Below, piece by piece: positions 35,066 to 51,475 of a stretch of DNA of 61,679 nt (the stretch's first letter is position 1; every line of letters begins with the position of its first letter). Location of the stretch: contig JAYFQW010000059.1 of NCBI GenBank assembly GCA_034926675.1, positions 1 through 61,679 on the forward strand, given 5' to 3'. Under the pieces are notes generated by a model. The model was given only the letters and a program-made list of their open reading frames with translations. It had not been told where the DNA came from and did no database searches. The translations under genes were made by a program, and so were the position numbers. The DNA comes from Clostridia bacterium. Lineage in GTDB: Bacteria; Bacillota; DTU025.

Positions 35066-35801
35066 GGGCCCCATCTGTGGGCACTCTCTCCAACACATGA
35101 ACCCACTGCCGGTCGAACTCGTCTCCCCCGTCCATGTTGGCACTAACGAACAGCGACGGCTTGATTCCCAGTGCACATAGACGCTCAACTATCTCTGCTT
35201 CCAGCATGTTGATAATGGCGGCCCCAACCACTGTGGACGTGGGACAAACCTGAGTGGACGACCCATTCACAGAGAGCACGGCGTCACCCGGCACACCGCA
35301 GTTGTCTATGACGATGTCAGCCACCTCGAAAAGGCGCTTGCCGCTGGAATGACGCGATGGCACACTCTTCGAGTGGGCGAGCGAGGTAAGAGCGATAACC
35401 GGGATCTTCTCTGCTTTTGCCGCCAGAGCCATCTCCACCGGAACAGAATTCCGCCCAGAGTTGGATATGATCATCAAGACATCGCCGGGGCAAATCCCAG
35501 AGTGATCCAGTATGATCTGCGCATATCCCTCCAGGCGCTCCATGGCTGTGGACTTGAAAGGACCGTCGTGAAGCATGAGAGCCGGTTCGAGTATCGCGTT
35601 CACCTGCACCAGCCCGCCTGCCCGGTAGAACGCCTCTTCCGCGATAATGTGAGAGTGGCCTGTGCCGAATAGATGGAGCCTGCCGCCGTTCTTGATCGTC
35701 TCGGCCACCACGCTCGCGGCTTCCTCTATCGCCTGGAGCTGGGTTTCCCCGACCTTGCTCAAGATCTGCTTGACACTGTCCAGGTAGTTCAGAGCTAACA
35801 T
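35022..35801 (-). CDS. SIS-domain protein, UPF0309-like
   Basis: A 259-residue protein with a single SIS fold: GGRLHLFGTGHSHIIAEEAFYRAGG, then VLMIISNSGRNSVPVEMALAAK, then VGAAIINMLEAEIVERL. This pattern matches the UPF0309 family, whose members occur in sugar operons and bind phosphosugars. ATG 35801 overlaps the stop of the ceramidase-like gene; an in-frame GTG lies at 35813. It may be a second isomerase or etherase-like enzyme beside the AgaS-like SIS protein. MurNAc-6-P etherase (MurQ) also has a SIS fold, but MurQ-specific motifs were not recognised. Confidence 0.83.
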   Translation of the reverse strand: MLALNYLDSVKQILSKVGETQLQAIEEAASVVAETIKNGGRLHLFGTGHSHIIAEEAFYRAGGLVQVNAILEPALMLHDGPFKSTAMERLEGYAQIILDHSGICPGDVLMIISNSGRNSVPVEMALAAKAEKIPVIALTSLAHSKSVPSRHSSGKRLFEVADIVIDNCGVPGDAVLSVNGSSTQVCPTSTVVGAAIINMLEAEIVERLCALGIKPSLFVSANMDGGDEFDRQWVHVLERVPTDGAHVRPQEGESVGAEN

Positions 35802-37186
35802 GGATCTATGCACATCCCCTTGCTCGAAAGTGTTGCTGCAACCCTGACGACTTCCGCAGTCGCCTCCGGCGCAAGATCCGACATGACCTGCTCATAGGCA
35901 TCCGGCGCCGCCCGTTCGGGCACAAGGTATCCGAAATGACCGTTGGAGTATCCGACCACCCATACGCACTCCCGAGAGCATCCACAGGAGCCCCACGGTC
36001 GGGCGCGCGCCATCGCCTCTTCCATTGCCTTCCCAGTGTCATATGGAAGCTCACCAGGTATGAGGGCCATCACCAGATCGCCCAGCCGAGCCATGCATAT
36101 CTCGGCTCGGATTGCCCCTCGAGCGGCAGCAGCGGTGATTGCCGCATCGCTCTTGGCCTCGGCCTCCGCTCGGTTCTTGGATCTGGTTAGAACGATCCTC
36201 CAAGCTGCAGCCCGGTCTTGAGCTGCTTTGACAGCCATGTGGTCGGCGCCGGACCTCACGAGTCGCTCGGCCTCCGACTCAGCCTGGCCAATGGACTCGA
36301 GCGCCCGCTCCCAACTCACGGAGGGTTTCCGGGGAAGCTGCACATGGTTGCACATGAGGCTGACTTTCGCACTGCTCGACGGCAGTGCAATCGCTGCAAG
36401 CTCAGACGCCCTGGACGCGACCTGCCTGCCCAGCCTTGCAGCCTCGTCGAAGGTCTGGGAGCGTCGCGTGTACCTTGTGCTCACATCCGCAGCGGCGCCA
36501 TTAAGGAACATTCCAAACGGGCGCTCCACTCCGGACGCTCGCATATCGTCCTCACATGAATCCACAATAAACCCCGGCAAATCCCTCGTGAGCATCAGGT
36601 TGTCCGGGCCGAGCACGGTGGGATGGCACGCAAAACTGACGATGCGTGCAACACTGCGTGCGACCCCGGCGTGGCTCTGGGCCCGCGACCGGAATTCCGC
36701 CACATACACGAACTGATCAATCGGTCCGGCTTCGCCCGTAAGCTCGCTTCGCCGGCTGGCGACCCCAGTCACCGTGCCTGAGGCATGGTATAGTTCACAC
36801 AGTTCGAGCGATGACCATGCGTCAAGAGCAGCATCCGCCGCTGCTCCAGTGATAGCGGCCACAATCGACGGATCGTGCCGACCTGAATCAGGGAAGATGC
36901 AGGCAGGCGCGGAATGTGTGTGAGTGCAACAGATCATGATCGAAGATGGATCAGCCTGTGTCGCCTTCGCCACTGCCGAGCGTATCGCACAGGCCAGGCC
37001 GGTGTCGGAGTAGAGAAGGTCGAGAGATACGACGGTGAGCGCGCGGCCCTCGCTCTCCACAGCTGCCACCCTGGCGAACAGGGGATCGTGCATGCCACAG
37101 GATGACTCCGTCCGCGCCAGGTATCCGGCAAGAGGAATCGACGTCGGCAACTGTATTCGACTGCAGCCTGATCCGACGTTGAACAT
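35795..37186 (-). CDS. Neutral-ceramidase-like amidase without signal
   Basis: A 463-residue protein related to the N-terminal zinc domain of neutral/alkaline ceramidases. Visible motifs are THTHSAP (88-94), FACHPTVLGPDN, a conserved GELPYD near the C-terminal third and VVGYSNGHFGYLVPERAAPDAYE, all with counterparts in ceramidases. It lacks a signal peptide and the C-terminal immunoglobulin-like domain, so it is a cytoplasmic short form. ATG 37186 has GGAGG eight bases upstream. Ceramidases hydrolyse an N-acyl amide. Set between an RpiR regulator and amino-sugar genes, this one may deacylate an N-acyl amino sugar (inference). Confidence 0.78.
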   Translation of the reverse strand: MFNVGSGCSRIQLPTSIPLAGYLARTESSCGMHDPLFARVAAVESEGRALTVVSLDLLYSDTGLACAIRSAVAKATQADPSSIMICCTHTHSAPACIFPDSGRHDPSIVAAITGAAADAALDAWSSLELCELYHASGTVTGVASRRSELTGEAGPIDQFVYVAEFRSRAQSHAGVARSVARIVSFACHPTVLGPDNLMLTRDLPGFIVDSCEDDMRASGVERPFGMFLNGAAADVSTRYTRRSQTFDEAARLGRQVASRASELAAIALPSSSAKVSLMCNHVQLPRKPSVSWERALESIGQAESEAERLVRSGADHMAVKAAQDRAAAWRIVLTRSKNRAEAEAKSDAAITAAAARGAIRAEICMARLGDLVMALIPGELPYDTGKAMEEAMARARPWGSCGCSRECVWVVGYSNGHFGYLVPERAAPDAYEQVMSDLAPEATAEVVRVAATLSSKGMCIDPC

Positions 37187-37231
37187 CGAAAGCGCCTCCG
37201 TTGCCTCCCTCGGCAAGTTGCCGTCGGTCGC

Positions 37232-38122
37232 TCAGTATTTCTTGTTCTTCACGGTCTCGCCCGTGCGCTCTATGAACTCTATGGCCCTGTCGTATATGGC
37301 CAGAGAGATCCCCACGAAAAGCGCATCCACCACAGATAGCTGGGCCATCATCGATGGCATCCCGCCAGAGCCGAATGGGGTCTCCTCTGAGGCTGTCCTG
37401 AGAACGATATCTGCGAGCTTCGCCACTGGAGACCGGGCGCGATTGGTAATGCACACGATATGTGCGCCACGGGACCTGGCCAGGGTGAGCACATCCACAA
37501 CATCCTTTGTGGAACCCGAGTGTGAGAATCCGATCGCTACATCGCCTGGCGAGATCAACGCAGTGGAAATGGCCTGCATGTGAGGGTCGGAGTAGAAGTT
37601 CGCGTGAATGCCCACCCGAAGAAGCTTGTAGTATGCATCCTGCGCAGCCAGAGAGGAAGTGCCGACTCCGTACAGGTACACCTGCTTCGCCCTTGAAATC
37701 TTGCTTACTGCTTCCTGCAGGGCGCCGAGGTCCAGAACATCTATCGTATCGCTTATGGCCTGGATGTTTGAGCGAAATGCCTTTCTAACCGCAACAGGCA
37801 GCGAGTCAGATGGCAGGATATCCTCATGGATGTTCCTGTCGGGCGAGACTAGCTCTCTGGCGAGCGCAATCTTCAGTTCCTGATAGCCGCTGTATCCCAG
37901 CGTGTTGCACAACCGAATGATCGTAGCATCGCTTGTGCCCGTCGCACTCGACAGCTCGGTGATGGATTGGTACACGACCTGATTCCCGTTCTCAAGGATG
38001 AATGATGCCACCTTGCGCTGTGCGGGCCGGAGTGCATCATATAGCTTTCTCAGCTTCGATAGGCAACTGGCGGTCGGAATCATCGCTTCCACGTTCGGTG
38101 CATCCGACATGACCCCCGTCAT
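37232..38122 (-). CDS. RpiR/MurR-family regulator
   Basis: A 296-residue transcription factor: an N-terminal HTH_6 domain (LSKLRKLYDALRPAQRKVASFILENG; SITELSSATGTSDATIIRLCNTLGYSGYQELK) and a C-terminal SIS effector domain (VYLYGVGTSSLAAQDAYYKLLRVG; IGFSHSGSTKDVVDVL). ATG 38122 is eight bases after GGGGAG; a longer start at 38209 is possible. It heads the minus-strand locus and probably senses a sugar phosphate, as MurR and NanR-type RpiR proteins do. It is the obvious candidate regulator of the 21680-38122 genes. Confidence 0.9.
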   Translation of the reverse strand: MTGVMSDAPNVEAMIPTASCLSKLRKLYDALRPAQRKVASFILENGNQVVYQSITELSSATGTSDATIIRLCNTLGYSGYQELKIALARELVSPDRNIHEDILPSDSLPVAVRKAFRSNIQAISDTIDVLDLGALQEAVSKISRAKQVYLYGVGTSSLAAQDAYYKLLRVGIHANFYSDPHMQAISTALISPGDVAIGFSHSGSTKDVVDVLTLARSRGAHIVCITNRARSPVAKLADIVLRTASEETPFGSGGMPSMMAQLSVVDALFVGISLAIYDRAIEFIERTGETVKNKKY

Positions 38123-38247
38123 ACGAACCGCTCCCCCCTGCGCTGGACAATACTGTTCTATGGAGTTTATCTCCACATATGCTGTTGCTTTGGTGGAGTA
38201 ATTCGCCATCAGTTGGAGAGTTCCTTCTTACTCATGCAACGATTTGT

Positions 38248-38378: not shown

Positions 38379-39971
38379 CTACTTGCCGGCAGGAGCTACG
38401 AGCTTCTTGAAGCCCACTGCCTTCAGCCAGTTCTCTGGGTAGCCTACTGTCTTCAGGTTCATGTAGCCATCCTGGTACTTCACAGCGAGCTTATCAGCTA
38501 GCTGCCAGTAGGCCGCGACGACCCTATCCGCATTGGCGTTCGAGTAAGAGGTGAGGTACTCGATAGCGAGCTTCGGATCGACCTTGTACAGGTCGGCCGC
38601 TACCTTCTCGATTACCGGCTGCATCTGGTATGCTTCGTTCTCGAACTTGCCAGCTGCCTCCTGAATGTCCTTGATCATGTAACTGTACTTCAGATCAGCG
38701 AAGTTCGAGACGTAGTTGAACGCCCACCAAGCGGCGCCCTTGTCGAGCACATCGCGGCGGCCAATGGCGAACGACTTCGGCACCGAAGTGGCGCCGCAGT
38801 AGAACGGCACGTAAGTGGTGGAATGAGGAGCATCCTCACCGAACCAGATCACTCCGCCGATGGGGTTCGGGAGCCACGCGCGCGACTGGGTGATGATGCT
38901 GTATGAGCAGCGGAACATCGAGATCGCCCGCTCCCACTCGCCCAGAGCGCCGGAGGTAGCGTATCTGTTGGGGTTGCCGAAGGGGCCAGCAGCCATTCCC
39001 TGGGTCAGGTCGAACTCAGTTCCCTCATAGTGATCGCGCTTTATCTTTGCCAGATCAGCGACGGAGACCTTCTTGTCCGGCTTGATGGAGAATGGATAGC
39101 TCTTCGCCCAGGGGTCGAAGTTCTGCGACGGCGCTAGCAGCGAGAGGGCGCGCCACTCGCGGCGGCTGTTGTAGAACGAGTCCTTGGGGCCATAAGCAGC
39201 TGCGAAGTTGAACGGACCCTTCGCAGGATCCCACCAGCCCTGCTCCTTGGCAAACTCGAATACGTTCTTGGAGAACATGTAGTTGTCGGGATCGTTCTCC
39301 TTCAGCTCGAAGATCCTGGAGCGGTTCGCAGACACTGCGATCTCGTCATCGGGAACGCGAACAGCGGCCCATATGGCGCCCTTCTGGAAGGGGCCAGCGC
39401 CGTACACTTCGAAGAACCAGGCCTCGTTCGCGTCGGTAACGGTGAGGCATTCGCCGCCGTCGCCGTATCCGTACTTCTCAGCGGTCTCGCCCATGATCTG
39501 GACCGCTTCACGGGCAGTGCGGGCGCGCTCAAGGCCGACCCTCTCCAGTTCCCAGATAAGGAATGGGCCATTGGGGTTGTACAGCTCCCGGCGGCCGCCG
39601 ACGGTGGTCTCTCCCATCATTACCTGGTTCTCATTGGCGAAGGGGTAAGCGATGTCGTAGTATGCGAAGGTATGAGCAACCTGCGGCATCTCTCCGACCT
39701 TCTCAGCCTGAGGAAGATCAGCGCCCTCGCCTCCGCCATTCATGATCGGCCTCATGGAACCCTCCGGCCAATCCTTGGCCGGCACGAGCTTGATCTGGAA
39801 CTCGTACCTGCCGTCGCAGGTGTGCGTGGTCATGACTGACCCATCGACTGAGGCATTCTTGCCCACCAGAATCGAGGTGCACGCGAATGATGGGACTGTC
39901 CATGCTGCCAGTAGCACTGCGAGCGCCAGGACGAGGGGCGCCATGCCCTTCCTAAACAGCCTCTTCGTCAA
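38379..39971 (-). CDS. Secreted C69 (U34) dipeptidase 1
   Basis: A 530-residue Ntn-hydrolase of peptidase family C69, relatives of Lactobacillus PepD. The signal peptide (LVLALAVLLAAWTVPSFA) ends immediately before C31 of the motif CTSILVGK, the family's N-terminal nucleophile, so signal cleavage at SFA|C would create the active enzyme. Other family segments are DGSVMTTHTCDGRYE, MGETTVGGRREL, SANRSRI, DLTQGMAAGPFGNPNRY and AWWAFNYVSN. The start is TTG 39971. It is last in the operon and a close paralogue of the next gene upstream. It would cut dipeptides outside the cytoplasm. Confidence 0.92.
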   Translation of the reverse strand: MTKRLFRKGMAPLVLALAVLLAAWTVPSFACTSILVGKNASVDGSVMTTHTCDGRYEFQIKLVPAKDWPEGSMRPIMNGGGEGADLPQAEKVGEMPQVAHTFAYYDIAYPFANENQVMMGETTVGGRRELYNPNGPFLIWELERVGLERARTAREAVQIMGETAEKYGYGDGGECLTVTDANEAWFFEVYGAGPFQKGAIWAAVRVPDDEIAVSANRSRIFELKENDPDNYMFSKNVFEFAKEQGWWDPAKGPFNFAAAYGPKDSFYNSRREWRALSLLAPSQNFDPWAKSYPFSIKPDKKVSVADLAKIKRDHYEGTEFDLTQGMAAGPFGNPNRYATSGALGEWERAISMFRCSYSIITQSRAWLPNPIGGVIWFGEDAPHSTTYVPFYCGATSVPKSFAIGRRDVLDKGAAWWAFNYVSNFADLKYSYMIKDIQEAAGKFENEAYQMQPVIEKVAADLYKVDPKLAIEYLTSYSNANADRVVAAYWQLADKLAVKYQDGYMNLKTVGYPENWLKAVGFKKLVAPAGK

Positions 39972-40066
39972 TCGTCTCTCTCCCTTTTCGCCGATTTTGA
40001 TGGTCTATTGCGGTCGAGCGCAGCCTCACGTTTTCGCCTTTGACTATCCCAATTTCCGCTCGACGG

Positions 40067-41719
40067 CTATTTCTTCGGAATGGTGCTCTCGCCAAACCCA
40101 ACGGCCTTGAGCCACCAATCCGGATAGCCCACTGACTGATAATCGCCGGTGTCATCGCCGTACACGTATCCATCAGTGTACCTGCCGGCCAATTGCGAAG
40201 CGAGTTTCCAGTATGCGTCCACCACCCGATTCGCATTCGCATTCGTGTAGTTGGTGATGTAGCTCCTAGCAAGCTCCGGATCCATGGCATAAAGCGCCAG
40301 CGCGGTCTTCTCCACCGCGGGCTGCAGCGCAAAGAACTCCTTCTCGAGAGGATCGCGCACTGCGGCAATGTCCTTGATCATGTAGGAGTACTTGAGGTCA
40401 GCATAGTTGGAGACGAAGTTGAACGCCCACCATGCCGATTCCCTGCTGAACACGTCGTATGAGCCGCCCCTCATGCCAGTGTCGAACGACTTGGGCAGCT
40501 CTGTCGCGCCGCAGTAGATCGGAATGTAGCAGGTGGAGTGAGGAGCATCCCATCCAAACCACGTCAGGCCGCCTATCCAATCCGGCATTCCGCGGCGGGC
40601 GGTTACGACCGTGGAGTAGTTGGTTCGGAACATCGAGATAGCCCGTTCCCATCCGGAGCTTCCAGGAGGGTTGAACTTGCTGGATGTGGGATACCGGTTA
40701 GGCGTTCCGAACGGACCAGCCGCCATTCCCACTGTTAGGTCGAACTCGGTTCCTTCGTAGTGATCGCGCACGATCCTCATGATATCCTGCACGGATACGG
40801 GCTTGTCGGGCTTGATCGAAAACGGGTATCTCTCGGTCCGAGGGTCAAGATTGAGCGACGGCGCCAGAAGCGAGAACACCCTCCACTCTCGCCTGCCGTT
40901 GTACGCAGAGTAGGCCTTGTAACCGTAGGTCTCGTACACTTTGAACTCCTTGCCGGCCTTAGGATCCCAGAACCCTAGCTCTTCGGCAAGGGTGTACACG
41001 TTGGGCGAAGCCATGAAATGATCAGGATCGGACAGGTCGATGGCGCCGATGCGGCTACGGTTCGCCGACACGCCGACCTCGCCATCGGGAATCCTGGCGG
41101 CAACCCACACCGCTCCAGGTTCGCCGCATCCGGGCGCCCACAGCGGGCCGGGGCCCCAGACTTCGAACATCCAGGCTTCGTTAGGGTCGATGACGGTCAG
41201 GCACTCGCCGGAAACGCAGTAGCCGTACTTCTCGGCCATCTCGCCCATGACCTTGATGGCCTCGCGGGCAGTGCCGCCGCGCTCAAGGCCGATTCGCTCA
41301 AGCTCCACAAGGTCAAACCAGGCCTGGCTGTTGTAGAGCACGTTGCGGCCGCCAATCGTGGTCTCGCCCATTCCAACCTGCTTTTCGTTCTGGAATGAGT
41401 ATGAGGAGTTGACGTAGGCGTAAGTATGGGAAACCTGAGGAATCTCGCCAGACACCACAATGGGCTCAGCGATCTGCTCGTACTCGCCGTAATCGGTGTT
41501 CTTGAGCACCTTCCTCGTGGCGCCTGCGGGCCAGTCAGCCGCATGGACAATCCTCATCTGGAATGTATCGCTGCCCGAATCGTCAGTATGAGTGGTCATC
41601 GCCGAGCCATCGGCTGACGCGCCTGGAGTAACTGGGATCGACGTACAGGCAAGTGTCGTCCATGAGCCGACCACCAGGGCGGCTATTGCCACAGCCACGA
41701 TAGATAGCCTCTTTGCCAT
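40067..41719 (-). CDS. Secreted C69 (U34) dipeptidase 2
   Basis: A 550-residue paralogue of the adjacent C69 gene. The signal peptide runs to TTLA, with predicted nucleophile C25 (CTSIPV) directly after. Conserved segments are DGSAMTTHTDDSGSDTF, MGETTIGGRNVL, SANRSRIGAID, DLTVGMAAGPFGTPNRY and WWAFNFVSNYADLKYSYMIKD. ATG 41719 has GGGAG seven bases upstream. It lies 96 bp from the stop of its neighbour in the 38379-45146 operon. The tandem arrangement suggests local duplication with divergence in the substrate-binding insertions. Confidence 0.92.
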   Translation of the reverse strand: MAKRLSIVAVAIAALVVGSWTTLACTSIPVTPGASADGSAMTTHTDDSGSDTFQMRIVHAADWPAGATRKVLKNTDYGEYEQIAEPIVVSGEIPQVSHTYAYVNSSYSFQNEKQVGMGETTIGGRNVLYNSQAWFDLVELERIGLERGGTAREAIKVMGEMAEKYGYCVSGECLTVIDPNEAWMFEVWGPGPLWAPGCGEPGAVWVAARIPDGEVGVSANRSRIGAIDLSDPDHFMASPNVYTLAEELGFWDPKAGKEFKVYETYGYKAYSAYNGRREWRVFSLLAPSLNLDPRTERYPFSIKPDKPVSVQDIMRIVRDHYEGTEFDLTVGMAAGPFGTPNRYPTSSKFNPPGSSGWERAISMFRTNYSTVVTARRGMPDWIGGLTWFGWDAPHSTCYIPIYCGATELPKSFDTGMRGGSYDVFSRESAWWAFNFVSNYADLKYSYMIKDIAAVRDPLEKEFFALQPAVEKTALALYAMDPELARSYITNYTNANANRVVDAYWKLASQLAGRYTDGYVYGDDTGDYQSVGYPDWWLKAVGFGESTIPKK

Positions 41720-41814
41720 TGTGTCACTCCCATTCTGCGCACCGTTCGTGCGCCCCGCGTCGTAGCAGCAGCACCGCGCTGCTGGCAGGCGCCTTCTCAC
41801 ACCCTGTGACCGTT

Positions 41815-42981
41815 CTACTCTGTGGCTACCCTATCTGCAGGCGCGGCAAGTGGATCGAGAAGATACCTGCCAACTCCATTCGCGACCACATCATCACGAA
41901 GCGGAAGATCCGTCATGCTGATTTCCCTCTCTGGATAGAGCATGTTGTAGATCTCCAGAATCATTGCGATGGTTGAGTTGGTGCGGCCAACGCGCTCATC
42001 GATTGGCCAGCCCTTCTCATCTATCTTCTCGTATAGCAGCCCCGCCTCGCCGGCCTTCATGACGAACTCGTCCTTGCCCTCAAGGAGCAGAGCTTCGTCG
42101 GTCTTCCCCCGCACCCTATCTAGGAACGGCTCGGGCACCTCAATTTCGAAAGGCATGGCGTTCGTGAAATCCCCAACTTCTCTATGTGAAAGCCCATGGA
42201 GAGTCTTGGGAGAGTACTCCATACCCATCTTGAAATCGCTTGAGAGTGTCATCGACGCCATGGCAGCCACTTCTGAGGCATTCTGGTGCGCCACTATCGT
42301 GCTGATAACCGAGTATTCGAGCTCCGCCTCGTGGAGGTCAATGAAGACGTCCACATTCTCCTGCTTTATCAGCTCGATGAAGGCGGCGCACGCTTGCTCA
42401 GCGACGCTGCCATTGAGCCTTCCGGGCCATGTGCGGTTGAGGTTCCTGATGTCCATGTACGCCAGGAGCTGTTTGCTTGGATAATGGATGTACACCTCAG
42501 GATCCGGCCATGAGTCGAGAGGATTCGCCCACCTGTCGCCCATTCGGAACTTCCGGGATCCAAACTCAGTGTTGATCGTGTAGTACTGCGGATACGCATC
42601 GCCAGGACGCGTCACCGTGGAGGCACTACGGTTGGCTCTAGTGGCAACGAGCAGTTTGCCTGTTGTTGGCTTTGCATTCTCGATCATGGTGACAGCTGAA
42701 AGCACGCCGGCGGGTTCTTCAGGGTGAGTGCCTCCCAACAGAAGCATGACACCGCCGGGCTCTCCGCTGTCCATAACATAGATATTGCAGTCGTTCACGG
42801 CGCCCTTGAGTGATGGCGCATAGTCGGACAGCTTCTTCACCTCAGTGACTCCAGGGCCTAGCACCACCGGTTCCTCGTAGTGACGGTGCGCGTACAGCTC
42901 CTGGCCTCCTGGAATCACGATCGCGAGCCAGAGGATGACCACGATCAGCTTCGCCGTCATTGAGCTAGTCTTGCTTGGCAT
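41815..42981 (-). CDS. Aspartoacylase/AstE-like zinc hydrolase, exported
   Basis: A 388-residue M14-related deacylase. Zinc ligands are H86 and E89 in GGTHPEEPAG and H217 in DVFIDLHEAE. The substrate motif RNLNRTWPG corresponds to the NR pair of aspartoacylases and carboxypeptidases. The N terminus has a hydrophobic signal or anchor (KLIVVILWLAIVIPGG), so the enzyme acts outside the cytoplasm, unusual for AstE/AspA, which are cytosolic. It would release an acyl group or a C-terminal residue from an N-acyl amino acid or peptide before uptake. It sits between the small membrane gene and the C69 genes. Confidence 0.85.
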   Translation of the reverse strand: MPSKTSSMTAKLIVVILWLAIVIPGGQELYAHRHYEEPVVLGPGVTEVKKLSDYAPSLKGAVNDCNIYVMDSGEPGGVMLLLGGTHPEEPAGVLSAVTMIENAKPTTGKLLVATRANRSASTVTRPGDAYPQYYTINTEFGSRKFRMGDRWANPLDSWPDPEVYIHYPSKQLLAYMDIRNLNRTWPGRLNGSVAEQACAAFIELIKQENVDVFIDLHEAELEYSVISTIVAHQNASEVAAMASMTLSSDFKMGMEYSPKTLHGLSHREVGDFTNAMPFEIEVPEPFLDRVRGKTDEALLLEGKDEFVMKAGEAGLLYEKIDEKGWPIDERVGRTNSTIAMILEIYNMLYPEREISMTDLPLRDDVVANGVGRYLLDPLAAPADRVATE

Positions 42982-43010
42982 CTGCTTATCTCGCCTCCTT
43001 CCTCAGGCTC

Positions 43011-43166
43011 TCATTTGATTCGAAGCACTCGCAGTATGAACGGCGTAAGCACCGCAGCATAGAGGATAGCCTTCTTTGTATCCTTAGCGCGAAGCAGGTT
43101 CACCGCCAGCACGGCTGCGATAACAGCAGTCATCAGATAGTAGAGAACGCTAATTGTCATCTGCAT
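43011..43166 (-). CDS. 51-residue two-helix membrane protein
   Basis: An overlooked small gene between the DctM-like permease and the AstE-like gene. It starts at ATG 43166, about 5 nt after GGGGGTGG, and ends at TGA 43011. The peptide begins MQMTISVLYYLMTAVIAA, has a first helix to about residue 24, a charged turn RAKDTKK, and a second helix AILYAAVLTPFIL ending VLRIK. Spacing is 19 bp from the permease stop and 29 bp to the next start. I know no named family. Its place matches where a small DctQ-type subunit would be in a TRAP operon, although canonical DctQ has four helices. Confidence 0.8.
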   Translation of the reverse strand: MQMTISVLYYLMTAVIAAVLAVNLLRAKDTKKAILYAAVLTPFILRVLRIK

Positions 43167-43185
43167 TACATCCACCCCCGTCCCA

Positions 43186-44472
43186 TCATCCGCGCGCCAG
43201 GAAGCCTAGCTTGGGCGCGAACAGCAAGTAGAGCGTGCCGATGGCGAGGATGAAGAGCCCAGGAACGATGCACTCCTTCAGGAATCCGCGGTAATCCCCG
43301 TCGTAGCCCGCACTCATTACCGCAGCTCTTCCCACAGGCGCAGTGGGAGGCAGGCAGTCGCCCAAAGGCCACATGGCAGCCATGCCGGCTAGCGCGATAA
43401 CAGGGTGGTATCCCTTCATGTTGAACAGGAACACAAGCGGAACCCCGAGAAGGGGCGCCGCCGCGAACTGAAACACGCCCTCAGACAGTGGAAGCACCAT
43501 CCACAGGACCGCGAACAGCACCCAAAGGGGCAGCGTGACTACGGAGAGTGAGATCAGCCCTCGGACGCCAGATAGCGCCATGATCTGAACCAGCACTCCC
43601 ACCACGGTGACCGTGCTGAGCAACGGAAGCAGATCATCGATAGTGCGCGAGAGGATCTTGATCACGGGCAGCTTCACGGGGGACAGGAGCACCACCGCAA
43701 CGGCCGATAGGGCGAACGCAAGCGGAAGCCCTAGGATCGGCATGGAGAACGGCGCAAGCCTTCCCGCAAGCACTATGCCGAAGAAAATCGCGAATGGAAC
43801 TGCCACGAGAGGCCAGGATGCGCCCTTGGGCGGCTCCGGGATCTCCCGCAGGGCTTTTGCTGCATCTATTCGCTTTCCCCCACGCGCCAGGAAGAACATG
43901 GAGAAAAGCGCGCCTGCAATGGAGATGATCGCAAGAGGCAAAGTGAAGCCAACGTATGGCATGTTAGCGCCGCCGGCGGCCATCATCGCCCAAAGGTTGA
44001 TGGGTGGCGCGGCCGCGCTCATGGCTGCACACAGAAACACGATCGCCGCTACTCGATCCTTCCGCGTGCCCATGTAGGTGAGCACTGTTCCGACGAACGA
44101 TCCGACCACAAGCACCGTGACAGTGCCAGAGCCGGTAAGGGCGCCAGGCACAAGCATGATGAGGGTCAGAAGCAGGAGCAGCGCCACTCGGTTCTTGTGA
44201 AACCGGGAGATGATGCCCCGCACGATGTAGGTGACTCCGCCCGCCTCCTTCAAGAGGTTCATGAAGAAAGTGGCGGTAATGAAGATGAAAATCACATCGA
44301 AATAGGTGAACGCGCCTTCAACGATGTGTCGGGCAGGCACTCCGGCGCCGTGCGCCAGAGCGCCCGCAATCGCTGCGAGCAGCATCGCTATCTCAGTGCC
44401 GCCTCGCAGAGCGATTACGACAACGAAGGCTGCGATCATCACCGCGAGGACTAGCCCGGCGTGTACGAACAC
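43186..44472 (-). CDS. DctM-like TRAP large permease
   Basis: A 428-residue membrane protein with about twelve helices of the DctM/ion-transporter superfamily. Recognisable parts are FIFITATFFMNLLKEAGG, a LIMLVPGALTGSGTVTVLVVGSFVGT loop, MSAAAPPINLWAMMAAGGANMPYVGF and MWPLGDCLPPTAPVGRAAVMSAG. It starts at GTG 44472 with GGTGGG seven bases upstream. No DctP receptor or normal DctQ subunit is encoded nearby. Instead a DUF6305 gene precedes it by 23 bp and a 51-residue two-helix gene follows. It probably carries an organic anion such as an N-acyl amino acid or short peptide (inference). Confidence 0.85.
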   Translation of the reverse strand: MFVHAGLVLAVMIAAFVVVIALRGGTEIAMLLAAIAGALAHGAGVPARHIVEGAFTYFDVIFIFITATFFMNLLKEAGGVTYIVRGIISRFHKNRVALLLLLTLIMLVPGALTGSGTVTVLVVGSFVGTVLTYMGTRKDRVAAIVFLCAAMSAAAPPINLWAMMAAGGANMPYVGFTLPLAIISIAGALFSMFFLARGGKRIDAAKALREIPEPPKGASWPLVAVPFAIFFGIVLAGRLAPFSMPILGLPLAFALSAVAVVLLSPVKLPVIKILSRTIDDLLPLLSTVTVVGVLVQIMALSGVRGLISLSVVTLPLWVLFAVLWMVLPLSEGVFQFAAAPLLGVPLVFLFNMKGYHPVIALAGMAAMWPLGDCLPPTAPVGRAAVMSAGYDGDYRGFLKECIVPGLFILAIGTLYLLFAPKLGFLARG

Positions 44473-44495
44473 AGCTCATCCCACCTAACTAGAGG

Positions 44496-45146
44496 TTACT
44501 TTCCAGAATTGAACAGCACAGCGAAAGCGTACTTGAAGTCCAATGATTCCACAGTCCGGATAATCGGTATGTTCCTCTGCTTTGCGGCGTTAGTGAAGAA
44601 GGCATCGCCATCTACTTCCTTGCGCACGATAAGCAGATCCGACTGGGATGATACGACCTTGTTGGACCTCTCGTCGCCCTGGTCAGTACGGCGGGCGGCG
44701 CCCTCGATCTGCGCGCCCACGACGAAGATCCCTAGCTTCTTGGCCTGTGTCACAAGTGCGTTGCAGCGGGCTATCTCCGCATCAATATCAACGCCGGCGC
44801 CGCCCATGCCCTTGCCGCTGGTGCCCATGGTAAGGACGAGAGTTTTGAACGCAGTCGACGGGTTCTTGCTCGCAGCGACCAGATCATTGGGGCTCAGCAT
44901 GTCTTCCATGGTGGAAGGAATCTTGAGGCCCTTGAGAAGCACATTGACCCACGACGCTCCAGGCGCCTGACCAATTGTGGTGATTGCAACCGGCCCCTTG
45001 AGCTGCGGAAGCTTAGCCGGGATTTCGATTCCGGCAGGCTTGGGGATTGTGACCTCGCCGGATGCCACCCCAGCCAGCAGGATTACACCGATGAGGGCGA
45101 CCATAGCAGTCCTCCCCAGAATGCGGTGTGCACTGATTCTGAACAT
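44496..45146 (-). CDS. Secreted DUF6305-like protein (paralogue 2)
   Basis: A 216-residue protein with a signal peptide (TAMVALIGVILLAGVASG). The mature part starts PVAITTIGQAPGASW and contains FKTLVLTMGTSGKGMGG, AKKLGIFVVGAQIEG, SDLLIVRKEVDGDAFF and RNIPIIRTVES. These motifs align in order with the plus-strand protein at 6728-7309. ATG 45146 or the adjacent GTG 45149 may start it. The repeated GTSGKGMGG glycine-rich loop suggests a ligand pocket. It precedes a DctM-like permease, and I infer that it replaces the missing DctP receptor. No direct evidence of binding exists. Confidence 0.8.
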   Translation of the reverse strand: MFRISAHRILGRTAMVALIGVILLAGVASGEVTIPKPAGIEIPAKLPQLKGPVAITTIGQAPGASWVNVLLKGLKIPSTMEDMLSPNDLVAASKNPSTAFKTLVLTMGTSGKGMGGAGVDIDAEIARCNALVTQAKKLGIFVVGAQIEGAARRTDQGDERSNKVVSSQSDLLIVRKEVDGDAFFTNAAKQRNIPIIRTVESLDFKYAFAVLFNSGK

Positions 45147-45206
45147 CACTTAAGCACCCCCGATGATTGCATTGCAGAGCCGAATTGGCGTTCATCTGCT
45201 GTTAAC

Positions 45207-45347
45207 CTATTTCTTCGGTGCGAGTTCAACTCCTCCCATCATGTGGTACTGATTTTCATCCCAGGCAGGAACGACCTGCACATCGTAGAATACCGGCCCT
45301 CGATGAGGGCGGCTGTTCGCCTCTGCGCTAGGGATTTCGCCATCGTA
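45207..45347 (-). pseudogene. Possible remnant of a coding C terminus
   Basis: On the minus strand a 46-codon frame without a start runs from after a TGA to TAG 45207. Its translation looks protein-like, with PVFYDVQVVPAWDENQYHMM and then GGVELAPKK at the end. An overlapping frame upstream (GRVGLDTMAKSLAQRRTAAL) also looks coding. This could be a frameshifted relic between the divergent DUF6305 and C69 genes. I could not assign a family. The stretch also has to hold both divergent promoters. Confidence 0.3.
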
Positions 45348-45436
45348 TCAAGGCCAACGCGCCCGCGGAGGAGCATGGCGAGATGGGCAGAGTCCGGACC
45401 AGAGCCCGCTCAGTAATAGCTGGAGGTGCCCGCGTG

Positions 45437-46990
45437 ATGAGATCAAGGATCAGGTTCAGCGCCATCGTCCTAATTCTCGTGGCGATCCTAACCGTTGCGA
45501 TCCCTGCCTACGCCTGTACATCCATTCCGGTGGAGAAGGCGGCCTCGGCGGACGGCTCGACCATGACTGCACACACCTGTGACGGATGGTACGATGCCAG
45601 AACCTTCGTGGTGCCCGGCAAGAAGCATCAGCCAGGAGATACCTTCCCATGCTATAGTGGGCTTCTTCACTCCGACCGCAAGGCCCCTGTGAAGATCGGC
45701 GAAATCCCAGAGGCCGAAGAGACCTACACTTACTTCTACGCAGCATATCCGTACATGAACGAGCACCAGGTGATCATGGGCGAGACGACCATAGGCAACC
45801 GCAGGGAGCTAACCTCCGGCGAAGGCCTCATGTTCATCGAGACCCTGCAGATCCTCGGCCTGCAGCGTGCCAAGACCGCCCGCGAGGCCGTGAAGGTAAT
45901 GGGCGAGCTGGCTGAGAAGTACGGCTACATCGACAGCGGCGAGTGCCTCACCGTTGGCGATCCCAATGAGATCTGGTTCTTCGAAGTGATGCCTCCGGGC
46001 GCATTCAAGAAAGGCGCAGTCTGGGCGGCAGTTCGGCTTCCCGAGGGACACGTAAGCGTTTCCGCAAACCGCAGCCGCATCGGCGCGATCGATCCGAAGG
46101 ACACCGAGAACTTCATGGCGTCCTCAAACGTGTTCGATCTGGCCATTGAGAACGGCTGGTGGGATCCTCAGTCGAGCGATCCGTTCCTCTTCTACAAGGC
46201 CTATGGCTTCAGCAACTCCCAGGGAAGCCGCAGGCGTGAGTGGAGAGTGCTGTCGTGGGCAGCCCCATCCCTGAAGCTCGACTCCACAGCAGAGCGGTAT
46301 CCCTTCTCGGTGAAGGCCGAGAGGCCCATCACCGTGCAGGACATGATGACCATCTACCGCGACACCTACACTGGCACCATCTACGACAAGGCCAACGTGA
46401 ACGACTGGTACGTGCCGGATGGAAAGGGCGGCTTCTACAAGAGCCCCTTCGCCACTCCAGATGTGTCATCCGAATTCGCGAAGCTCGTTGACGCTCCGTC
46501 GGAGCGCAACATATCCATCCCCGGCTGCTCCTACTTCACCATCATCCAGGCCCGCGGATGGCTCCCGAGCGCCATCGGCGGACTCGCCTGGTTTGGGCTT
46601 AACAGCACTGACACCTCCGTCTATGTACCGGTGTACGCTGGCGTAAGGAACCTGCCTGCCAACTACGCCGTGAACGACAGGACCAAGTTCAACCTGGACA
46701 ACTACAAGGAATCTGCCTGGTGGGCGTTTGACTTCATGGATAACCTCGTTAACCGCCGCTACCAGGACATGATCAAGGACCTTGTGGCTGTGCGCGACCC
46801 CTTCGAGGCTGAGCAGTTCGCGCTTCAGCCAGCGATCGAGAAGACCGCGGCCGAGCTCTACAAGACCAACCCCGAGCTCGCGGTGAGCTTCCTGACCCAG
46901 TACACCAACTCCCGGTGTGAAAAGGCCGTGGACCTGTACTGGAGAACCGCAGAGCAGCTGATTACCAAGTACGACGACAAGGGGTTCTAG
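45437..46990 (+). CDS. Secreted C69 (U34) dipeptidase 3
   Basis: A 517-residue third paralogue, divergent from the operon. The signal peptide ends AIPAYA with nucleophile C27 (CTSIPV) directly after; AYA is an ideal signal-peptidase I site. Family segments are DGSTMTAHTCDGWYDARTF, MGETTIGNRREL, SANRSRIGAID, a longer insertion around VNDWYVPDGKGGFY, and WWAFDFMDNLVNRRYQDMIKD. GGAGG at 45422-45426 serves ATG 45437 or the adjacent GTG 45434. It is followed by a strong hairpin. Its sequence is further from the other two than they are from each other. Confidence 0.92.
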   Translation: MRSRIRFSAIVLILVAILTVAIPAYACTSIPVEKAASADGSTMTAHTCDGWYDARTFVVPGKKHQPGDTFPCYSGLLHSDRKAPVKIGEIPEAEETYTYFYAAYPYMNEHQVIMGETTIGNRRELTSGEGLMFIETLQILGLQRAKTAREAVKVMGELAEKYGYIDSGECLTVGDPNEIWFFEVMPPGAFKKGAVWAAVRLPEGHVSVSANRSRIGAIDPKDTENFMASSNVFDLAIENGWWDPQSSDPFLFYKAYGFSNSQGSRRREWRVLSWAAPSLKLDSTAERYPFSVKAERPITVQDMMTIYRDTYTGTIYDKANVNDWYVPDGKGGFYKSPFATPDVSSEFAKLVDAPSERNISIPGCSYFTIIQARGWLPSAIGGLAWFGLNSTDTSVYVPVYAGVRNLPANYAVNDRTKFNLDNYKESAWWAFDFMDNLVNRRYQDMIKDLVAVRDPFEAEQFALQPAIEKTAAELYKTNPELAVSFLTQYTNSRCEKAVDLYWRTAEQLITKYDDKGF

Positions 46991-47191: not shown

Positions 47192-47917
47192 TCAGTTCAA
47201 AACGCATCTGCTCTCGTGCGAGTCATCGCCCGTGTGCGCGATGTGCGCGTCGCCGCCTTCCAGGGCACTGAGAATCGTCTCCAGAGAACGCCTGGTGTGG
47301 CGCCTGGCGGCCGCCTCTGCCTCAACCGCGTCCCCCTCCGACAGATGCAACAGGATCTCTTCGTGTCCACGATTGGAGTCCAGCATGCGGCCTGGTTTCT
47401 GGAAGCCTACCCTCGTGAACCTGCGCAGGTAGGCGCGGACATCCGACAGCAGACGCGTGAGGCGAGGGCTATTCGCCGCCATGTATATCCTCTCATGAAA
47501 GGCCAGATTCCATTTCCCCCATTCCTCTTCATCGCCCATCAGGGCGGAGGAGTCCATGTGGCACAGGGCAGCAGTCAGCGCCTCAAGATCCGACTCGGTG
47601 CGACTTACGGCCGCCTGCCCAGTGGCCAGCCCCTCAAGCACCTCACGGATTGTGAATATCTCTATGGCGTCGGCTGGCGATACCTCGGTGACCGTGAGTC
47701 CGCCGTCGCGCGAGCGGCAGACGAGCCCCTCTGACTCAAGCCTCTTCAGAGCCTCGCGAACTGGTGTACGGCTCACATAGAACTGCTCCGCGAGCCTCCG
47801 TTCAACAAGGCGGGATCCTGGAGGGATCTCTCCATCGAGAATCATGGTTCGCACACGCCGGAAAACCTCGCAGGCCACTGGCTGCGAACCGTCGCAATCC
47901 TCTAGCAGCAGTCTCAT
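47192..47917 (-). CDS. GntR regulator, FadR/FCD type
   Basis: A 241-residue regulator: an N-terminal winged helix (FRRVRTMILDGEIPPGSRLVERRLAEQF; SRTPVREALKRLESEGLV) and an all-helical FCD domain with the metal-site pattern EIFTIREVLEG, NLAFHERIYMAA and HEEILLHLSEGDAVEAE. ATG 47917 was chosen with GAGG five bases upstream; the longer frame crosses A/T-rich leader. It is downstream of larA on the same strand but separated by 192 bp, and a GGTATACC palindrome at 47974-47981 could be its operator. FCD regulators often sense hydroxy- or keto-acids, which would fit the racemase. Confidence 0.9.
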   Translation of the reverse strand: MRLLLEDCDGSQPVACEVFRRVRTMILDGEIPPGSRLVERRLAEQFYVSRTPVREALKRLESEGLVCRSRDGGLTVTEVSPADAIEIFTIREVLEGLATGQAAVSRTESDLEALTAALCHMDSSALMGDEEEWGKWNLAFHERIYMAANSPRLTRLLSDVRAYLRRFTRVGFQKPGRMLDSNRGHEEILLHLSEGDAVEAEAAARRHTRRSLETILSALEGGDAHIAHTGDDSHESRCVLN

Positions 47918-47973
47918 GGCAGCCTCGCGTTCCTCCAGATCATGAATTTGCATCCAGTATGCATGCGGCTTCT

Positions 47974-47981
47974 GGTATACC
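47974..47981. promoter_or_regulatory. GGTATACC palindrome upstream of FadR-type gene
   Basis: A perfect 8-bp palindrome in an A/T-richer leader 57 bp upstream of the regulator start. FadR/FCD operators are usually short palindromes of this kind with a TNGT-type half-site. The assignment is tentative. Confidence 0.3.
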
Positions 47982-48109
47982 GAGCGTGGTTCCACGTCGC
48001 TGCCACAATTCCTGCTATCCAATTGCAGAGGAATGAAGAGATAAATGGCACAAATTCGAGTACCGCAAAGCTTGTGTCCGGGCGCCGCGCCTGGCATGCC
48101 ATTCCCGCG

Positions 48110-49396
48110 CTATGAGCCTAGCAACTGGTCAACGTAGGGGATTGTCTGCGGTCCCTCAGGCAGGACGCAGATGCGTGCGTCTGGTCCGTACTCTGTAAGC
48201 AGCTCATGCAGGGTGTGTTCTATACTCACGCAGGGTATGAGCATCGCGGCGCGAATCTCATCCTCCGAAAGTCCAGCAGTGTGCAGGTAGATCTTTGCCC
48301 TAAGCTGTGTCCTGGCCTGAAGCTGAACCTGCCATTGATCGGGCATGGTGAATCCAGGTGATGATATGAGCCTCATTGCACCCTCAGGGGTGCGCGCCAT
48401 TGCGAGGAGTTGCTGGTAAGGGCTGCCTTTCGGCGCCCCGTCGATGCACTCCGCTGCCGCGATTATGGCGCCTCCATCTCGCACGATGCCGACCGCAGCC
48501 GACATTCCCTTGACCGTTTGGTACAGATTTCGATCAAGAGGGTAGCCGCTGTTCGTAGTGATCACGATGTCGAACTCGTGTGGGACAGCGCGCATCGCAG
48601 ACTCTCGGACGTACTCAATGCCTGCTGCGTGCGCCTGCCTAAGAGCGCCTGCGAACACTCCAGTGATCTCCTTATACCTGTTCAACGTCACATTCACAAT
48701 GAAGGTGGGCTTTGTAAGCTCCGCGGCCTCCGTGACAAGCTCGAACACAGGATTGCCATGGGTTATGCCCCAGGTCGATCTGGGATCCGCGATTATCCCA
48801 TACCCATGGGCGTCCATCACATTCTCCATGCTGGCCACGCCTGGCAACACGAGCTTCCCGCCTCCGCTGAACCCTGCAAAGAAATGGGGCTCTATGAATC
48901 CCACCAAGATCCTCACTGAGGCATTCAGATACTCTCTGTTAACCCGGACTTCTCGCCCTGACCTGAGTGTGCCCGCCAACGCCATCCCAGCCTGATCGTG
49001 GCAATCGTGCTGGACAATGCGGTAATCCTCCACAATCTCCTCCCCCAGCATCTCCACTAGCTCCCGGTGGGGGCTGGTTCGATGGGTTCCCAGCGCGTTT
49101 ACCAGCACGATTCTATCGCGCGCCACGCCAGCCAGAGCCAGCTCAGCAAGGATTAGGGGAAGGATTGTCCGGTTCGGCGCCGGCCTAGTAGCATCGCAAA
49201 ACACGATTGCAACCGCATCGGAGCTATCGACAAGGCTCTGCAATGGCCCAACGCCTATCGGATTGCGAAGGCTCTCCACTATTGCGCTTTCGGGGTTGTG
49301 AAGCCCCGGGGTGAACACCGGCTCAACGACTGTGACGTTCCTATCTGGAACATCACAGTCAAACCCGGCCTTTCCGTAGGCCAGTTTGATCCGCAT
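48110..49396 (-). CDS. larA: LarA-family nickel-pincer racemase
   Basis: A 428-residue protein of the lactate racemase family. The residues that hold the nickel-pincer cofactor and do catalysis in Lactiplantibacillus LarA (H108, H174, K184, H200) are all present with constant spacing here as H105 (GTHRTSP), H171 (EPHFFAGF), K181 (GGGK) and H197 (DAHG). The start is ATG 49396 after GGAGG at 11-nt spacing; about 97 upstream codons are repeat DNA. LarA homologues racemise or epimerise various alpha-hydroxy acids, so D/L-lactate is only one option. Cofactor genes larB, larC and larE are not in the window. Confidence 0.9.
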   Translation of the reverse strand: MRIKLAYGKAGFDCDVPDRNVTVVEPVFTPGLHNPESAIVESLRNPIGVGPLQSLVDSSDAVAIVFCDATRPAPNRTILPLILAELALAGVARDRIVLVNALGTHRTSPHRELVEMLGEEIVEDYRIVQHDCHDQAGMALAGTLRSGREVRVNREYLNASVRILVGFIEPHFFAGFSGGGKLVLPGVASMENVMDAHGYGIIADPRSTWGITHGNPVFELVTEAAELTKPTFIVNVTLNRYKEITGVFAGALRQAHAAGIEYVRESAMRAVPHEFDIVITTNSGYPLDRNLYQTVKGMSAAVGIVRDGGAIIAAAECIDGAPKGSPYQQLLAMARTPEGAMRLISSPGFTMPDQWQVQLQARTQLRAKIYLHTAGLSEDEIRAAMLIPCVSIEHTLHELLTEYGPDARICVLPEGPQTIPYVDQLLGS

Positions 49397-49426
49397 TTGA
49401 ATGCAGTCCTCCATAGCTATAGCATT

Positions 49427-49530
49427 GTTGATGTGATCGTGTCCGTGCGACCGTTGATGCGATTCTGTCCGTGCGACCGTTGATGCGATTGTGTCCGTGC
49501 GACCGTTGATGCGATTCTGTCCGTGCGATT
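49427..49530. repeat. Four 26-bp tandem repeats in larA leader
   Basis: Four head-to-tail copies, at 49427, 49453, 49479 and 49505, of a unit beginning GTTGATGCGAT and ending GTGCGACC. Copies differ at only a few positions; the last ends GTGCGATT. They fill the gap between the aminotransferase stop and larA. There are no unique spacers, so this is not a CRISPR array. Confidence 0.95.
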
Positions 49531-49542
49531 TATGATCTCCCG

Positions 49543-50718
49543 CTACGACAAGGATTCGCCGAGAGCTCGGAGCCCCGCGCCTACATCCACCTTGCACCCG
49601 CGCCTGTGCAGGATCTGACCTATGGCGGCAATGACCAGCGTTGCGTTGGCAAGTGTGCAGGACTCCCCCATGAGCCCTATGCGCCATATTCTGCCCTTGA
49701 GCTCACCGAGCCCGCCCCCGATCTCGATCCCGTATTCCAAGAGGAGCTCCTTCCTTACTCCTGCCTCGTCGATTCCCTCCGGCGTAATCACGCATGCAAG
49801 CATGGGAGTTCGGAACTCCTTCGGAACCAGCAGCGCCAGCCCCATGGCCTCCACGGCACACGCAAATCGTGCGCTAATCGAAGAATGCCTGCATGCCCTT
49901 GCGTCGAGCCCCTCCTCTGACACTGCCAGGAGCGCCTCATGAAGGGCATACACCATGTTGATTGGGGCTGTGTGATGGTAGAACCTCTCCGACCCCCAGT
50001 AGCGGTTGATCATGGAAAGATCCAGGTACCAACTCTGCACTGGTGATTTGCGTCCCATCACAACGGTGGTCGCCCTATCGTTAAGCGTAATGGGCGCCAT
50101 GCCAGGCGGGCAGCTCAGGCACTTCTGGCTTCCACTGTAGGCAACATCGACCAGGTTATCATCCACGCCCACGTGGGTCCCGGCCAGGGACGTGACCATA
50201 TCCGCCACAAACATGGCGCCAGCTTCCCTGCAGGCCTTCCCGATTTCTCGAAGCGGCTGCAATACCCCAGTGGATGTCTCCGCATGGACGATAGCCACCA
50301 CCTTCGGGTGCTTCTCGCGAATGGCCCGAATCACATCGGCAGGATCGAAGGCATGGCCCCATGGTGCGGATATGGTTGTGAGCTCACCACGACAGCGCTG
50401 CACGATATCGGCCATCCTCAGGCCGAAGAAGCCGTTGATCGCCACGAGCACGCGATCGCCGGGCTCAACGACGTTCACGAGGGCAGCCTCCATTCCTGCG
50501 CTTCCAGTGCCTGATATGGGGATCGCGAGGGAGTTGCCGGTCTCGAATGCCTCTCTTAGCAGCACGGCAGTATCGTTCATCACGGCGAGAAACTCAGGAT
50601 CGAGGTGCCCTATGGTCGGCATCGCCATGGCCTGTAGGACCCGTGGGCTCACGCTCGACGGCCCTGGGCCCATCAACAAGCGTTTCACCGAAGGCCTCGG
50701 CGAATTTGCTGCGTTCAT
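49543..50718 (-). CDS. Class V aminotransferase, AGXT/serine-glyoxylate type
   Basis: A 391-residue PLP enzyme. The N terminus KRLLMGPGPSSVSPRVLQAM and GHLDPEF are typical of alanine-glyoxylate and serine-pyruvate transaminases. SGTGSAGMEAAL lies in the PLP site, HAETSTGVLQPL and VADMVTSLAG follow, and the Schiff-base Lys is in YSGSQKCLSCPPGM. ATG 50718 has AAGGGGGA nine bases upstream. It is 146 bp upstream of larA on the same strand, with the 26-bp repeats between. Joint transcription would link a hydroxy-acid racemase with amino-acid/keto-acid exchange. Confidence 0.92.
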   Translation of the reverse strand: MNAANSPRPSVKRLLMGPGPSSVSPRVLQAMAMPTIGHLDPEFLAVMNDTAVLLREAFETGNSLAIPISGTGSAGMEAALVNVVEPGDRVLVAINGFFGLRMADIVQRCRGELTTISAPWGHAFDPADVIRAIREKHPKVVAIVHAETSTGVLQPLREIGKACREAGAMFVADMVTSLAGTHVGVDDNLVDVAYSGSQKCLSCPPGMAPITLNDRATTVVMGRKSPVQSWYLDLSMINRYWGSERFYHHTAPINMVYALHEALLAVSEEGLDARACRHSSISARFACAVEAMGLALLVPKEFRTPMLACVITPEGIDEAGVRKELLLEYGIEIGGGLGELKGRIWRIGLMGESCTLANATLVIAAIGQILHRRGCKVDVGAGLRALGESLS

Positions 50719-51475
50719 GGCGCCAAATCCCCCTTCACGTATGCGCTGCCAGCGTTCTTCTCCATTATCGCCCCTAATCCTCCAGACATCGAACTGCGGG
50801 AGGCTGCGGCTGAAGCAGGCATCGCATCACGGCGGGGGTGCGGGTGCGGGTGCGGGTGCGGGTGGTCCCCAGAGAGCGCGCGCATATGCCGTGACGCGCT
50901 GGGCGGGGCGGGCGGGTGCGGGCGCGGGTGCGGGTGGTCCCGGAGTGTCCATCCCCTGGACACTGGTTCTCCAACCAGCCGCCTTCCGATGGCCGATTCC
51001 CGTCCATCCCCCCACCGCCACGACGGCCGATATCAGATACGCCGATGGGAACGGCCTCGAGTGGTACAGGGCAGCACCGGCGCATCAACGATAAGACCAG
51101 CTAGATGCAGGAGCTGATGGTCGGCTTGACGGCTCAATGCCAACCTGTAAGCGCCTGGCTTGTCGTGGTGTTTCTCCTCGTGCAGACAGCTAGGCCAGAC
51201 AGCTGGGGTGGTCAGAAGCAGTCCATCTATGGGTTAAGGCTGCGCATTTCCGGTTCAGTGGTTGGACTGAAACGATCCAGCCCGCAACGTTGAGCGAAGT
51301 CGGTGAATGTGGGTGAACCCGAGGCAAGCGGAAATCGCCCAAAAGGGCTATGGAACATAATGGCATAAGTGTAGTACAGTGTATCTCGTAGGCGCCGCGC
51401 AGCCAGGCTACGTCTCCGCTCTCCCTCATCGTGATGTCGTGCGGCGCCCAACAATACATGGCGGGAGTGTCCCCA
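50719..51475. other. Gene-free 757-bp stretch
   Basis: No frame has an SD-supported start and protein-like content. The left half holds G-rich tandem repeats described separately. The right half (about 51300-51475) is closer to average composition and probably contains the promoter of the winged-helix gene. It is the longest stretch without a gene in the window. Confidence 0.5.
50834..50938 (+). repeat. G-rich hexamer repeats, G-quadruplex-like
   Basis: GGGTGC runs four times in tandem at about 50836-50862 and again, degenerate, at 50901-50938, each run ending GGGTGGTCC. With four or more GGG blocks separated by 3 nt, each run fits an intramolecular G-quadruplex pattern on the plus strand. 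Both runs lie upstream of the aminotransferase, on the strand opposite its coding strand. Confidence 0.85.

Follow-up and report, generated by a model that had tools for sequence, protein, structure and literature searches.

Tripartite TRAP transporters such as DctPQM, SiaPQM and IsePQM combine a DctM-type large membrane subunit with a DctQ-type small subunit of about four helices (separate or fused) and a bilobed receptor of the DctP or TAXI type, and their receptor-dependent uptake is driven by Na+ or H+. A TAXI-TRAP receptor that binds glutamate is known (PMC11574862), and in TAXI-GltS (PMC12344293) a TAXI receptor is paired with GltS. Here, we analyze a locus in a 61,679-nucleotide stretch of the genome of a Clostridia bacterium (contig JAYFQW010000059.1, assembly GCA_034926675.1; the whole stretch is referred to as the window), in which the gene of a secreted DUF6305 protein is followed on the same strand by those of a TRAP M-subunit-like permease, a two-helix membrane protein of about 50 residues and an AspA-like hydrolase. 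We found that this locus is one copy of a widespread and conserved four-gene module.

The module resembles the TRAP systems in the fold of the M subunit, with which it shares a distant homology over the full length, in having a separate secreted component and in its carboxylate-rich substrate context. Unlike them, it contains neither DctP nor DctQ but includes the small protein and a constant AspA-like hydrolase, and its permeases form a clade on a long branch. Among NCBIfam models, the TAXI-TRAP fused permease (TIGR02123) is the closest to the two module permeases tested, but the module permease has no fused Q domain and no TAXI receptor was noted, with no TAXI-specific search made. The likeness to TAXI-GltS lies in the new pairing of a binding protein with an elevator-type carrier, although here the partners are DUF6305 and a TRAP-M homolog together with the small protein and the hydrolase. 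Lastly, the poly-gamma-glutamate systems PgsBCA/CapBCAD and PgsB-PgsC-TIGR04332 co-occur with the module, are frequently adjacent to it and share with it a hydrolase partner of the gamma-glutamyltranspeptidase (GGT) family, but the four core proteins of the module are not among the described Pgs or Cap components. Since two of the defining parts of a TRAP transporter, the DctQ-type subunit and the bilobed receptor, were looked for and not found, we regard the module as related to the TRAP transporters but built with different partners. It appears to be undescribed in the literature that we searched, which makes no mention of DUF6305, PF19823 or TIGR04332 and uses the phrase "poly-gamma-glutamate system protein" only in an unrelated context.

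A conserved four-gene module

A scan of 84,980 genomes with a profile of the permease found at least 524 relatives, and we took gene neighborhoods from the best 80 loci. These belong to Bacillota, Fusobacteriota, Synergistota, Spirochaetota, Calditrichota/KSB1, Aminicenantes, Bipolaricaulota, SAR324, Thermodesulfobacteriota and Gemmatimonadota. Clostridium tetanomorphum (L138) and an Acetomicrobium are among the bacteria that have the module. In the class of the host, DUF6305 was present in 11 of 12 genomes, at 42 places, nearly all of them with the permease and the hydrolase. Among 132 distinct permeases from about ten phyla, the small protein is encoded directly downstream in 128, the hydrolase lies within 1.6 kb in 124 and DUF6305 is nearby in 118; most of the loci without DUF6305 are near contig ends, and the remainder include one fusion and unexplained cases. 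The order DUF6305-permease-small protein-hydrolase is kept in 95 of 105 complete sets, with median gaps of 8 and 11 nucleotides around the small protein. Given that about ten phyla have this module, the gene arrangement of the window is far beyond chance. The preliminary description of this DNA had proposed that DUF6305 and the small protein belong with this type of permease; their co-occurrence bears this out and, with the AspA-like hydrolase, brings the constant members to four.

The pairwise distances of the four proteins are correlated (Mantel r of 0.76 to 0.86 against a maximum of 0.14 after shuffling; 0.83 for DUF6305 and the permease), part of which reflects the shared ancestry of the host genomes. 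DUF6305-AspA fusion proteins were found in three genomes of one genome family (L103, L106 and L108), and a TIGR04332-AspA fusion in another family (L160:1188-3110). A single frame joining DUF6305 and the permease (L076:7929-9683, minus strand) was set aside as proof of interaction because its DUF6305 part is about 40 residues short, and it may be a decayed copy or an assembly effect. In Calditrichota/KSB1 loci (L171, L181, L205 and similar ones), proteins with a type IX sorting tail and PorV-type outer membrane proteins are among the sampled neighbors of the module.

The permease is a distant homolog of TRAP M subunits

The permease of the window matches no Pfam or NCBIfam family at an E value of 0.1 or better (CitMHS appears only at E = 5), so that its earlier designation as DctM-like is right, yet evident only from profile and fold comparison. 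A paralog in the same genome (C36), also adjoining a DUF6305 gene, passes the cutoff of the Pfam family DctM (PF06808) with 37 bits, and two module permeases match TIGR02123 below its cutoff (3e-10 and 2.5e-8). When a profile of 70 relatives was compared with the PDB, the sole match was the isethionate TRAP permease IseQM (9pym, E value of 3.7e-4), of which it covers the M domain. The alignment of the module permease profile to a profile of eight canonical DctM sequences with hhalign indicates homology over the full length (probability of 97.7%, E value of 1.5e-12). In seven further comparisons among module and control profiles, the probability was at most 0.6%. The AlphaFold model of the permease (pLDDT of 94.3) has its best fold matches in IseQM (TM-score of 0.74) and SiaQM (0.71), ahead of VcINDY and further proteins of that superfamily. 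Thus, by profile and predicted fold, the permease is a homolog of the large membrane subunit of TRAP transporters, and in the tree the module permeases form a clade of their own, separated from the canonical M subunits by a long branch (support of 99).

No gene for DctP or DctQ was found at the locus in the window. The host genome encodes DctQ twice elsewhere (at C2 and C3), in both cases beside a canonical DctM of its own. When we searched 30 genomes bearing the module, 26 had DctP and DctQ somewhere, whereas neither had a match in the other four, namely G003 (87% complete), G004 (97%), G116 (98%) and Neofamilia massiliensis. Across the 132 loci, scanned with small DctP and DctQ profiles, a DctP- or DctQ-like gene was never nearer than 3.9 kb and was within 12 kb in only five, in at least two of which a canonical DctM lies beside that gene. 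Hence, the permease subgroup is not routinely accompanied by true DctP or DctQ, neither of which belongs to the module in the loci and genomes searched. Since four module genomes lack both, and the two DctQ genes of the host adjoin a DctM of their own, the module permease needs neither.

The small membrane protein and DUF6305

The small proteins, each of about 50 residues, form a family in which a Tyr, a Pro and an Arg are invariant and the C terminus carries Lys or Arg, where the alignment ends in approximately IPxxLRxLxIK. The protein has no curated family (no Pfam match at E values up to 0.1 and nothing of note in NCBIfam). The proposal that it replaces DctQ is matched by an obligate linkage to the permease but not by a homology found here: the comparison with a six-member DctQ profile gave a probability of 0.6%, and the locus has no match to PF04290. 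Relationships to PgsC or TIGR04332 were also ruled out by profile comparison. From its linkage, we infer that it may act as the small membrane subunit of the permease in the place of DctQ.

DUF6305 was modeled by AlphaFold (pLDDT of 90.8) as one alpha/beta domain. The earlier suggestion that it replaces the receptor therefore meets a predicted fold that is not the Venus flytrap of the bilobed DctP and TAXI receptors. Its fold matches in the PDB are SGNH hydrolases first, followed by other Rossmann-like folds, with a TM-score of 0.48 at most, and sequence comparison with the PDB gave chance matches only. An identification as an SGNH hydrolase was not adopted, given these scores and that the copy of the window has Ala in place of the motif serine; likeness to a domain of TIGR04332 was ruled out by profile comparison. 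Residues G60, Q61, E125 and R128 are invariant and D182 nearly so, and the most conserved positions are mostly located just past the C-terminal ends of parallel strands, as read from the secondary structure rather than from coordinates. Strand ends are the usual place of ligand binding in such alpha/beta folds.

The neighbors of DUF6305 are not random across genomes. Of 36 loci outside the class of the host (L101 to L136), 12 combine DUF6305 with the permease and 24 have the genes of a histidine kinase and a response regulator directly after it; 3 belong to both groups, so that one or the other setting accounts for 33 of the 36. A role in binding or sensing would fit both. Several of the loci with a kinase continue with genes that, by their size, resemble an oligopeptide ABC transporter. 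The window has a second DUF6305 gene (6728-7309, plus strand), without a module permease, which lies upstream of an ABC transporter consisting of an SBP_bac_6 receptor (7449-8447) and a permease and ATPase that extend to 11475.

Hydrolases and partner enzymes

The AspA-like hydrolase has the HxxE...H zinc ligands and the catalytic glutamate of the AspA/AstE family, and H86, E89, H217, E281, N180 and R183 are kept in 100% of 142 homologs; no NCBIfam equivalog that would point to aspartoacylase or desuccinylase activity reached its cutoff. The enzyme has an N-terminal membrane anchor (98% of the homologs have a hydrophobic stretch there) and presumably faces outward. The C69 dipeptidases encoded beside the module in the window belong to a family whose catalytic Cys becomes N-terminal after removal of the signal peptide; this Cys lies within an A30-C31-T32 motif that is invariant in 46 homologs.

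However, C69 is not the usual partner, a fact that the preliminary description had missed. GGT is encoded near 94 of the 132 permeases and C69 near 29, with either one present in 114. In the tree, loci with only C69, the window included, form one well-supported clade nested among the GGT loci, and a single change on the permease tree suffices to explain the distribution of GGT-only and C69-only loci. GGT is thus the usual partner enzyme and C69 the derived partner of one clade. That the partner tracks the phylogeny of the permease fits the earlier idea that the hydrolases make the substrate of the transporter.

A link to poly-gamma-glutamate

The module also tracks, nearly perfectly, a synthase system of the poly-gamma-glutamate type, which had likewise gone unnoticed. 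In a sample of 398 genomes from the phylum, the poly-gamma-glutamate system protein TIGR04332 was present in 22/22 genomes with the permease and in 2/376 without it (Fisher P of 4e-34, and 5e-21 outside the class of the host, values to be read with the relatedness of the genomes in mind, as the draws are not independent). PgsB showed a similar distribution (21/22 against 12/376); in 18 of these 21 genomes, its distance to a DUF6305 module is, by coordinates, about 10 kb or less. All 36 genomes reached from loci of the global scan have TIGR04332, compared with none of 14 control genomes. The host (G000) has a PgsB-PgsC-type synthase, with PgsB, PgsC and TIGR04332 encoded together (C46:191-3101) on a contig other than that of the locus. 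Genes similar to D-glutamate cyclase recur nearby (5/105 of the sampled module neighbors). In B. subtilis, GGT takes single units off poly-gamma-glutamate and the zinc peptidase PghP also cleaves the polymer (PMC4497714), and Fusobacterium nucleatum has been reported as a polyglutamate maker (PMC3815933).

Proposed function

Starting from the four-gene unit, its homologies and its co-occurrences, we infer a direction of transport and a substrate and consider it moderately probable that the locus encodes a TRAP-like importer that recovers glutamate or short gamma-glutamyl or dipeptide fragments released outside the cell. Such fragments would probably stem from poly-gamma-glutamate-type polymers and peptides. 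They would be released, with free glutamate, by surface GGT or C69 and the anchored AspA-like hydrolase, which with its conserved catalytic residues presumably cuts its substrate at the outer face. The secreted DUF6305 protein may capture the ligand and pass it to the permease, which as an elevator-type carrier would take it across the membrane, probably coupled to ions, with the two-helix protein as its small subunit. Uptake of glutamate-containing fragments is probable because the module is nearly confined to bacteria with poly-gamma-glutamate genes.

Several points weigh against this proposal. The copy in the window has C69 instead of GGT, and PgsB of the host is on another contig. Since DUF6305 is not bilobed, unlike the known TRAP receptors, and its matches in the PDB are weak and generic, with SGNH hydrolases at the top, it may instead function as an enzyme or as a chaperone. 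The strongest objection is the nearly perfect co-occurrence of the module with PgsB-PgsC-TIGR04332, which a pure scavenger would not need to have itself; the module may thus take part in exporting or remodeling the polymer.

The module might indeed be part of the machine that synthesizes and exports poly-gamma-glutamate, with DUF6305, the small protein and the hydrolase handling, trimming or anchoring the polymer and the permease exporting it or a building block. The constant presence of TIGR04332, the adjacency of PgsB and the TIGR04332-AspA fusion speak in favor, as does the fact that CapD, of the GGT family, anchors the polymer elsewhere (PMC4497714). We nevertheless regard this as unlikely, given that genomes with one PgsB operon have several modules (three in the host with its one PgsB, and nine DUF6305 matches in G008), that many copies are far from PgsB, that GGT has been replaced by C69 dipeptidases in one clade, and that TRAP-type M proteins import small molecules, so that passage of a polymer is not obvious.

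It is likewise unlikely, and compatible with the other explanations, that DUF6305 is a sensing or regulatory part, either informing a kinase of the ligand or gating the permease. The permease would then transport without a binding protein, as carriers of the ion transporter superfamily such as VcINDY do. The adjacent kinase and response regulator genes, the single-domain fold of DUF6305 and the presence of VcINDY among the best fold matches of the permease are consistent with this; the position of DUF6305 ahead of the permease in 95 of 105 complete modules and its coevolution with it speak against it.

Closer to the preliminary description would be a general importer scavenging peptides and amino acids, with C69, GGT and AspA-like enzymes cutting assorted peptides and N-acyl amino acids, import of the carboxylated products by the permease and no tie to polyglutamate. 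The copy in the window, which is accompanied by three C69 genes but has no Pgs genes in its vicinity, would suit such a system, and so would the variable hydrolase partner, but this reading seems quite unlikely since it leaves unexplained the TIGR04332 found in 58/58 permease-positive genomes checked (22 + 36).

A more speculative version of glutamate recovery, which we hold to be distinctly improbable, is a gamma-glutamyl cycle. The polymer would leave through PgsB-PgsC-TIGR04332 and serve as the donor from which surface GGT (C69 in derived copies) forms or frees gamma-glutamyl amino acids. These would enter through DUF6305, the permease and the small protein, and glutamate would be recovered inside, in some loci with the D-glutamate cyclase. 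If so, the polymer and the importer would belong to a single economy of transport instead of being a capsule plus a scavenger.

That canonical DctP and DctQ encoded elsewhere serve the permease, as the canonical TRAP genes on other contigs of the host genome might suggest, is very improbable and largely refuted by the four module genomes that match neither and by the position of both host DctQ genes beside their own DctM.

Gene layout and other features of the window

The row of genes given in the preliminary description was confirmed with Pfam and NCBIfam (Table 1). The intergenic gaps are 23 nucleotides between DUF6305 and the permease, 19 between the permease and the small protein, 29 between the small protein and the hydrolase, and 95 both between the hydrolase and the first C69 gene and between the two C69 genes. 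A divergent C69 gene upstream of DUF6305 was also found in two other loci (L047 and L062).

Table 1. Genes of the module and its flanking dipeptidases in the window
Feature	Coordinates	Strand	Evidence and remarks
DUF6305 protein, 217 aa	44496..45149	-	Signal peptide and single alpha/beta domain (predicted); PF19823, 5.2e-37
TRAP M-subunit-like elevator permease, 428 aa	43186..44472	-	Profile and fold comparison
Two-helix membrane protein, 51 aa	43011..43166	-	Alternative GTG start at 43175 possible
AspA/AstE-like zinc hydrolase with N-terminal membrane anchor	41815..42981	-	AstE_AspA_cat PF24827, 2.3e-7, above cutoff
Secreted C69 dipeptidase	40067..41719	-	PF03577, 3.2e-62; family Cys nucleophile invariant
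Secreted C69 dipeptidase	38379..39971	-	PF03577, 6.1e-74; Cys31 invariant in 46 homologs
Secreted C69 dipeptidase	45383..46990	+	PF03577, 8.6e-62; divergent from DUF6305

Elsewhere in the window, a Wzi-type capsule assembly protein of the outer membrane and an M55 D-aminopeptidase are encoded side by side (17329-18723, minus strand, and 18809-19636, plus strand); the former suggests a cell with two membranes. What looks like an amino-sugar cluster (33365-38209, minus strand) comprises a GH84-type beta-N-acetylglucosaminidase, a ceramidase-like protein and a MurR/RpiR regulator, with genes similar to ABC transporters further on. A nickel-dependent racemase of the LarA type adjoins a class V aminotransferase (48110-50718, minus strand), and a GntR regulator lies at 47192-48097. 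Short GC-rich tandem repeats at about 50800-50960 would be translated, in several frames, into runs of Pro-Ala or Arg-Thr.

Implications

A TRAP-M-type carrier in which both partners have been exchanged and to which a constant hydrolase has been added would mean that importers of this kind can be built on a plan other than the tripartite one of TRAP. The module provides testable roles for DUF6305 and for an undescribed family of 50-residue membrane proteins across hundreds of genomes, including many of anaerobic amino acid users. It also ties both families to poly-gamma-glutamate, a polymer about whose turnover and reuse little is known outside Bacillus.

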